From Candidatus Saccharimonadota bacterium (lineage in GTDB: Bacteria; Patescibacteriota; Saccharimonadia; Saccharimonadales; Saccharimonadaceae), in contig JAUMZA010000002.1 in NCBI GenBank assembly GCA_030528355.1, positions 1 through 43,059 on the forward strand: a stretch of 43,059 bases of DNA, read 5' to 3'. Of the stretch, positions 1,832-2,653 are shown in pieces. The notes under the pieces are model-generated. The model was not told the DNA's origin and made no database searches. It saw nothing but the letters and a program-made list of their open reading frames with translations. Positions within the stretch are counted from its first letter, which is position 1, and the number at the start of each line of letters is the position of its first letter. A program made the position numbers and the translations under genes.

Positions 1832-1860
1832 TTGCATTTATATTAAATATCTGTTATAAT
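1832..1860 (+). promoter_or_regulatory. Sigma70-type promoter for the 146-aa gene
   Basis: -35 TTGCAT at 1832-1837, a 17-nt spacer and -10 TATAAT at 1855-1860, with an upstream TGn extension (TGT). Transcription would start near 1867, giving a 5' UTR of about 90 nt that contains two direct copies of GGCTAT (near 1892 and 1901). The transcript would run through the gene at 1958 into the hammerhead ribozyme. Confidence 0.7.
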
Positions 1861-1957
1861 AAGAAGATTGAGGTTTTATTGTTTGTGAGAGTGGCTATCA
1901 GGGCTATTCGCAATAAATCCTCGCTCCTTGACAACCAATCGAAAGGAGAAGACGCTC

Positions 1958-2398
1958 ATGTCTTCTTTGTCCCCAGCTAACATGTTGCGTCGCCTGCATG
2001 AATGTATCAGCGACGTGACAGTACGTAAGCACACCATCGCCTTGGCAGAAGATGATATCACGGTTAAAACACGTGTTTCGTTCAAAGCAGACCGCCAGCT
2101 TGCAAAAGAGCAGCAATACGACGAACTGTACAGTCAGCTTGTCGATTACACCCACAAGCTACTACACCTAGTGAGCAAGCTACCTCCAGAAGAAGACTAC
2201 ACGTACCGCCATCATAACACCTTCACGAACGATCACCACATCGAGTACGGCTCGGCCATTGTGTGTATCAAGGTGACTATCAAGGCACCGCCACGCACGA
2301 GCGACACCCCCTTGAAGGACTACGAAATGGACGATAAAGTCGGTACGATTGTAGAAGATAAGATGTTCCGTGCAGCCAAAGCACTGGTAAGCCCATAA
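1958..2398 (+). CDS. Unrecognised 146-aa protein, host gene of the hammerhead 3' UTR
   Basis: I do not recognise this protein. The ATG at 1958 is chosen because GAAAGGAGAAG (1941-1951) gives a good Shine-Dalgarno at about 9 nt; an in-frame ATG at 1928 has none. The 146-aa product has no signal peptide or membrane segment. It is mixed alpha/beta in look, with a helical first third (SSLSPANMLRRLHECI), many His and Tyr residues in the middle (YTYRHHNTFTNDHH) and a final helix. It is transcribed alone from the promoter at 1832-1860. The 3' UTR contains a hairpin and then a hammerhead ribozyme that starts 42 nt after the stop. A small cytosolic RNA- or ribosome-associated protein is conceivable, but nothing in the sequence proves it. 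Confidence 0.75.
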   Translation: MSSLSPANMLRRLHECISDVTVRKHTIALAEDDITVKTRVSFKADRQLAKEQQYDELYSQLVDYTHKLLHLVSKLPPEEDYTYRHHNTFTNDHHIEYGSAIVCIKVTIKAPPRTSDTPLKDYEMDDKVGTIVEDKMFRAAKALVSP

Positions 2399-2442
2399 AA
2401 CTCGACACTGCGGACTCCTGCCTTTCATTCGGTTGTTGAGTT
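2399..2442 (+). other. Hairpin in 3' UTR just before the hammerhead
   Basis: CTCGACA (2401-2407) pairs with TGTTGAG (2434-2440) with one G-U pair. It can be extended by AA (2399-2400) with TT (2441-2442). A small inner stem GCGG/CTGC is possible within 2410-2422. There is no T-run, so it is not a terminator. Its lower base pairs use the first two bases of hammerhead stem III, so the two structures could compete. Confidence 0.5.
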
Positions 2443-2523
2443 CGCTCTGTAATTTTGGCGATTACACTGATGAGTCCCGTGGCAACCTACTACACAAATT
2501 GCCGCACCAAGGACGAAAGCGAA
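2441..2523 (+). ncRNA. Hammerhead ribozyme, type III
   Basis: Self-cleaving RNA with the complete hammerhead core. Stem III is TTCGCT (2441-2446) with AGCGAA (2518-2523), 6 bp. The cleavage triplet CTC ends at C2447, so the cut falls between 2447 and 2448. Stem I is TGTAA (2448-2452) with TTACA (2462-2466), perfect, with loop 2453-2461. The core CTGATGA is at 2467-2473. Stem II is GTCC (2474-2477) with GGAC (2511-2514), extended past an asymmetric internal loop by GTGGCAA (2479-2485) with TTGCCGC (2499-2505, one G-U), leaving a terminal loop at 2486-2498. The core GAA is at 2515-2517 and A2518 pairs with T2446, as the fold requires. All invariant nucleotides (CUGANGA, GAA, A15.1-U16.1, H17) are present. 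Because the 5' and 3' ends meet in stem III, the type is III. The internal loop in stem II and the large loop I could make the usual stem I-stem II tertiary contact. It lies between two genes. Confidence 0.93.
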
Positions 2524-2572
2524 TACTGGACTATCTCATAACCATAAGAAATATAAAAGTCCTAAAACATTG

Positions 2573-2624: not shown

Positions 2625-2653
2625 TTGACATGAAATTAAATATGTTATATAAT
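2625..2653 (+). promoter_or_regulatory. Main promoter P2 of the sigma4-HARE gene
   Basis: Perfect consensus: TTGACA at 2625-2630, a 17-nt spacer and TATAAT at 2648-2653. Transcription would start near 2660, giving a leader of about 60 nt with the Shine-Dalgarno GAGAGGA at 2711-2717. Confidence 0.8.

Follow-up and report, generated by a model that had tools for sequence, protein, structure and literature searches.

A type III hammerhead ribozyme in the 3' untranslated region of a Saccharibacteria orphan gene, with a candidate role in mRNA 3'-end formation

Hammerhead ribozymes of bacteria and prophages, type III examples included, flank single genes of varying identity, and many are associated with prophages and integrases (Perreault et al. 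2011, PMC3088659). For the prophage hammerheads, the proposed task is to divide long transcripts into pieces the length of a gene, and some of the ribozymes in that set use a pseudoknot between loop I and stem II (PMC3088659). The function of bacterial hammerheads has been described as an open question (PMC6155905). Subscription journals and preprints aside, we found no literature linking hammerheads with Saccharibacteria, Patescibacteria or the candidate phyla radiation. The ribozyme class is known; the lineage and the 3'UTR arrangement reported here appear to be new. In contrast to the set of Perreault et al., the Saccharibacteria hammerheads are surrounded by core chromosomal genes, and most of them follow a hairpin within a 3'UTR.

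The DNA analysed here (the window, 43,059 nucleotides of contig JAUMZA010000002.1 from a Candidatus Saccharimonadota bacterium, assembly GCA_030528355.1) belongs to an 835-kb genome. An initial annotation had placed a complete type III hammerhead at 2441-2523 on the + strand. This is confirmed at the level of sequence, with self-cleavage predicted: every element it named was found where it was placed, and positions 2440-2524 (+) match the Rfam type III hammerhead RF00008 end to end with 36.3 bits. The match is significant when a 341-base stretch is searched against all 4227 Rfam families (E = 2e-6) and when the whole 835-kb genome is searched (E = 1.1e-6). It is the sole RF00008 match in that genome at E ≤ 10; there is no second type III hammerhead, and the one match to type I is at chance level. 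A lineage model (R1), built from 61 other Saccharibacteria members with the window ribozyme left out of training, recovers it with 45.4 bits (E = 8.3e-11, 580 kb searched). Its parts are as follows.

2440..2524, + strand: type III hammerhead ribozyme, whole match (RF00008, model R1)
2441..2446, + strand: 5' strand of stem III, UUCGCU, pairing with 2518-2523 (RF00008 alignment, fold)
2447..2448, + strand: predicted cleavage between C2447, of the CUC triplet, and U2448 (alignment to RF00008)
2448..2466, + strand: stem I, UGUAAU/AUUACA, with loop UUUGGCG at 2454-2460 (RF00008 alignment, fold)
2467..2473, + strand: core CUGAUGA (sequence, RF00008 alignment)
2474..2514, + strand: stem II, GUCC/GGAC, with extension GUGGCAA/UUGCCGC (2479-2485/2499-2505) and right shoulder ACCAA at 2506-2510 (RF00008 alignment, fold)
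2507..2510, + strand: CCAA, which could pair with UUGG of loop I at 2455-2458 in a pseudoknot-type contact (inspection)
2515..2523, + strand: core GAA (2515-2517), then the 3' strand of stem III, AGCGAA (2518-2523) (sequence, RF00008 alignment)

Like the type III hammerheads of RF00008, the window ribozyme has the invariant core CUGANGA...GAA, the A15.1-U16.1 pair (A2518-U2446 is present beside the cut), three helices, strand ends in an open stem III, and an NUH cleavage triplet. It differs from them in its stem II arm, which is 41 nt long and has an internal loop, in a score under the gathering cut-off and in its place in a Saccharibacteria chromosome. Stem I had been described as perfect with 5 bp; it spans 6 bp, or 7 with a U-G pair. 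The 6 bp of stem III (to which an outer G-U is added) and the extended stem II are as originally drawn. The minimum free energy structure is the hammerhead, at an unexceptional energy (z = -1.4), and the contact between UUGG of loop I and CCAA of stem II is plausible and not significant (p = 0.39, composition-preserving shuffle). There are no tandem hammerheads flanking a unit, as in a retrozyme or viroid-like circular RNA element, and the ribozyme is single copy in the 835-kb genome.

A default Rfam scan is silent at this position because 36.3 bits falls under the RF00008 gathering score of 48.5, a cut-off that is a database convention and not a biochemical feature. The low score is probably due to the long stem II. 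Only 3 of 295 genomes of the same family have any match above 48.5, so the cut-off reflects the limit of the model for this lineage. At E ≤ 1e-4 the same model finds 78 matches in 48 of the 295 genomes, and matches in 14 of 287 genomes of a phylum-wide sample; at the looser E ≤ 0.1, a single genome has as many as eight. A sequence-only pattern of core plus stem II matches 58 times in 38 of 394 genomes, and its reversed counterpart never. Among 53 pattern-selected cores, for which stems I and III played no part in selection and most of whose loci are also found by the Rfam model, both of these stems form in 50, against 0.4% with shuffled flanks. The RF00008 and R1 E-values, the core-pattern counts and this stem-formation test together rule out a chance match.

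The stems covary strongly in relatives, a check named in the initial annotation, but at other loci, since no relative has a ribozyme at this one. Across 61 compact members, standard pairs fill 96.3% of the pair cells, with a covariation of 0.81 against 0.22 when shuffled; these members were chosen by structure, so the test on the 53 cores is the cleaner one. Of 93 family members, 19 have the CUC triplet. No stem III strand is commoner among relatives than that of the window, UUCGCUC (9 of 92 other members). Stem III is free to vary, and the sharing suggests common descent with those members. The window ribozyme departs from them in its long stem II arm and in its loop I, which lacks the UGYGUA-like motif. 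That motif is found in none of 11 long-arm members and in 56 of 82 compact ones (p = 1e-5), and the joint occurrence of a long arm and loss of the motif suggests a tertiary contact of another kind. The distribution of the family is patchy: a large genus (g2) lacks exact-core matches. At one locus (L123, G026:C13:3900-9900) four hammerheads lie within ~2 kb, flanking tandem small orphan genes, and at another (L406, G146:C21, ~1553-1640) a hairpin is followed by an apparent hammerhead minus stem II and most of the core. At least 120 stretches with the hammerhead core pattern occur in viral contigs (L216-L295 and more).

In the window, the predicted cut lies 49 nt past the stop codon of a 146-aa gene, a position that supports the original proposal that the ribozyme is placed to cut this gene's mRNA.

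1852..1860, + strand: extended -10 promoter TGTTATAAT of the orphan gene, with transcription start inferred near 1867 (read from sequence)
1942..1948, + strand: ribosome binding site AAAGGAG, 9 nt ahead of the ATG at 1958 (sequence)
1958..2398, + strand: 146-aa orphan gene, with the ribozyme in the 3'UTR of its mRNA (codon usage)
2625..2653, + strand: perfect promoter, TTGACA-17-TATAAT, of the downstream sigma4-HARE gene (12 of 12 in hexamer scan)

Codon usage at 1958..2398 fits coding in that frame only. The -35 element is poor (TTGCAT at 1832), and the orphan promoter was missed by a two-hexamer scan. The encoded protein has no match in Pfam, PHROG or PADLOC, no convincing homologue in the 295 family genomes and no homologue in viral contigs; we do not believe a weak match in G166 (E = 0.0026, internal stop) to be a homologue. 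Its AF2 model is of low confidence (pLDDT 62), with no usable PDB match. A strong hairpin is also predicted in the 5'UTR of the gene (1867-1960; 94 nt, ~-28 kcal/mol). No terminator-like site, with a hairpin followed by a T-tract, occurs on the + strand between the orphan gene and the HARE gene.

The neighbours are topA, sigma4-HARE and a TraG/TrwB-like ATPase, in a gene order matching Candidatus Saccharibacteria; TM7 oral taxon 348 is a same-genus genome. At the locus, conserved sequence gives out close to where topA ends and picks up again, with the HARE promoter region, at ~2550. In one same-genus relative (L034), only 257 nt separate topA from HARE, a near-empty site, and in other relatives different small genes lie between the two. 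The hammerhead is absent from all of 80-odd syntenic loci searched with a descriptor and a covariance model. With conserved sequence interrupted and the ribozyme missing from these loci, the segment from 1786 to ~2549 is lineage-specific, and a locus-conserved regulator of the HARE gene is ruled out. On the explanation we favour, the orphan would be a recently gained accessory gene.

A similar placement recurs across the family. A same-strand stop codon lies within 180 nt upstream of 64 of 92 family ribozymes, and of the nearest genes upstream, 38 share the strand of the ribozyme and 11 are on the opposite one (genes in relatives were called by a longest-ORF rule, by which single assignments can be wrong). 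A convergent gene follows within 150 nt of at least 19 of the 64, which often leaves no sense gene downstream that could be separated. Eight of 50 members have a divergent gene upstream and a sense gene downstream, and for these a leader role is possible. Terminator-like sites follow the ribozyme in about one sixth of the family and precede it in some members; substitution for a terminator is therefore not general.

The upstream genes are small, mostly orphans, with most of their proteins matching no Pfam or PHROG family. The few matches include NUDIX, an RNA polymerase alpha C-terminal domain, an exonuclease and one Tad4: the gene directly before one hammerhead (alignment A1) matches this anti-Thoeris protein, an inhibitor of type I Thoeris, with E = 6.5e-24, and the orphans may thus include accessory or counter-defence genes. 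The neighbouring genes of family members have core chromosomal functions, by which a prophage setting is ruled out for the sampled loci; neither the window, with the neighbours named above, nor the relatives sampled have a prophage or integrase context. Of the earlier expectation that hammerheads lie near mobile or unknown genes, the second half is borne out by the orphans upstream, but a prophage link was not seen around the members examined. A site behind a tRNA-Trp gene (identified by eye) in the close relatives G145 and G178 is a small integration hotspot: it holds an orphan gene and a hammerhead at L173/L395 (G145:C41) and a 3.3-kb set including an OLD/RecF-like ATPase, likewise identified by eye, at L376 (G178:C79).

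Taken together, we consider that a functional type III hammerhead in the 3'UTR of the orphan gene probably, though far from certainly, serves 3'-end maturation of the orphan mRNA. The DNA itself shows the ribozyme and where it lies, the orphan gene, a near-empty site in a relative and, across the family, the pattern of placement in 3'UTRs. In the proposed mechanism, polymerase would read past the 146-aa gene, which has no intrinsic terminator, and the RNA would fold and cut itself after C2447. Such cleavage in vivo, which we infer, would leave the orphan mRNA with a defined 3' end, a 2',3'-cyclic phosphate directly after a 3'UTR hairpin, and would detach any read-through RNA, making the ribozyme a post-transcriptional 3'-end former with presumed effects on stability or expression. 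An upstream hairpin might then take up the freed strand UUCGCUC, which would favour release of the downstream piece. As with intrinsic (rho-independent) terminators, the mRNA end would be set behind a hairpin; unlike them, the ribozyme would act after transcription by predicted RNA self-cleavage, and the window has no T-tract.

Folding before the cut is in keeping with this. Segments from stop codon to cut have a mean folding z of -3.6 (n = 50), against -1.9 in 86 other 3'UTRs from the same loci. One subfamily has a 24-bp hairpin with several G-U pairs that ends at the cut and takes in the stem III strand.

2410..2445, + strand: possible capture hairpin GCGGACUC...GAGUUCGC, 8 bp, competing with ribozyme stem III (fold, shuffle)
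2400..2441, + strand: alternative hairpin ACUCGACA...UGUUGAGU, compatible with the ribozyme and abutting stem III (constrained fold)
L391:7372-7464 (- strand), L392:1335-1427 (+ strand), L030, L125, L126 and L136: loci of the dispersed 24-bp hairpin

In the window, the stop-to-cut segment has z = -2.7, and the capture hairpin reaches p = 0.035 against shuffles, as one of 71 tests. The extended 3'UTR has two nearly equal folds, capture at -32.4 kcal/mol and ribozyme at -30.8, and its minimum free energy structure disrupts the ribozyme, by 1.6 kcal/mol. The predicted smaller hairpin of the window, laid out as in the 24-bp subfamily, and these near-equal folds are suggestive only. The window ribozyme has no conserved 24-bp hairpin (hairpin model R2 gives no match), and the conserved GTCTGCTTGTCAT box finds a weak match only (p = 0.03). 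Stem III capture by an upstream hairpin is rejected as a universal rule, with 11 of 71 members at p < 0.05 (Fisher p = 0.007), and holds for a subset of the family only. The 24-bp inverted-repeat hairpin GCGAATRTGGCAAGT...CTTGTCATATTCGC is dispersed behind unrelated genes, with a hammerhead attached or not. Where the ribozyme is missing, a T-tract or a terminator hairpin comes next instead (L391, L392, L405), and a 3'-end-forming role is preferred for this reason. A more speculative extension, on which we place limited confidence, is that hairpin and hammerhead form a 3' module that is dispersed, moves horizontally and would serve the accessory genes of Saccharibacteria as a self-cleaving substitute for a terminator; capture of the freed stem III strand by the upstream hairpin would make cleavage irreversible and leave the mRNA 3' end fully paired.

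The initial annotation had the ribozyme split a dicistronic transcript, separating the orphan gene from the sigma4-HARE mRNA and giving the latter a 5'-OH end. The two genes follow one another on the same strand without a terminator-like site between them, so read-through would be cut, and hammerheads flanking single prophage genes provide a precedent (PMC3088659). This claim is nonetheless weakened, and we now regard it as unlikely: a perfect HARE promoter starts 178 nt past the predicted cut, in a region conserved in relatives that lack the ribozyme, and a convergent gene lies downstream of many related ribozymes. As HARE has its own promoter beyond the cut, a 5'-OH HARE mRNA would be at most a read-through effect.

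Could the ribozyme instead belong to a mobile gene cassette or element, in which a homologous 3' hairpin-hammerhead module is common to unrelated orphan genes and the task of the ribozyme, or of its DNA, is movement and not mRNA processing? A hairpin-ribozyme block of ~145 nt is ~77-93% identical across genera behind unrelated genes, and homology stops at the 3' edge of the ribozyme (median -1 nt), which for short matches is trivially the motif itself. The G145 insert behind the tRNA gene has its right edge at the ribozyme end, where G178 has other genes, and the window shares the commonest stem III strand. However, no recombinase was seen among the immediate neighbours of the window ribozyme, which is present once in its genome; ribozymes are kept in place between orthologous species pairs, and the conserved G-U pairs of the hairpin point to pairing in RNA rather than DNA. 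We doubt this reading to much the same degree. A decayed or neutral relic, once active and now without effect on the host, seems more improbable still: the ribozyme is not conserved at its locus, the family is patchy to the point that genus g2 has no exact-core matches, and the G146 member (L406) looks deleted, but the core and all three stems are intact in the window, and across the family the cores are uniform and the pairs covary strongly.

For 3'-end formation, the preferred role, the consistent 3'UTR placement behind hairpins makes a direct test possible by RNA end mapping. Some Saccharibacteria have been cultured with their hosts, so RNA work should be feasible. As the default Rfam cut-off misses nearly all of these ribozymes, under-annotation is likely. 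Many known hammerheads are tied to phages, and here dozens are found in the ordinary chromosomes of bacteria with tiny genomes, where the scattered set probably trims the ends of accessory-gene messages.
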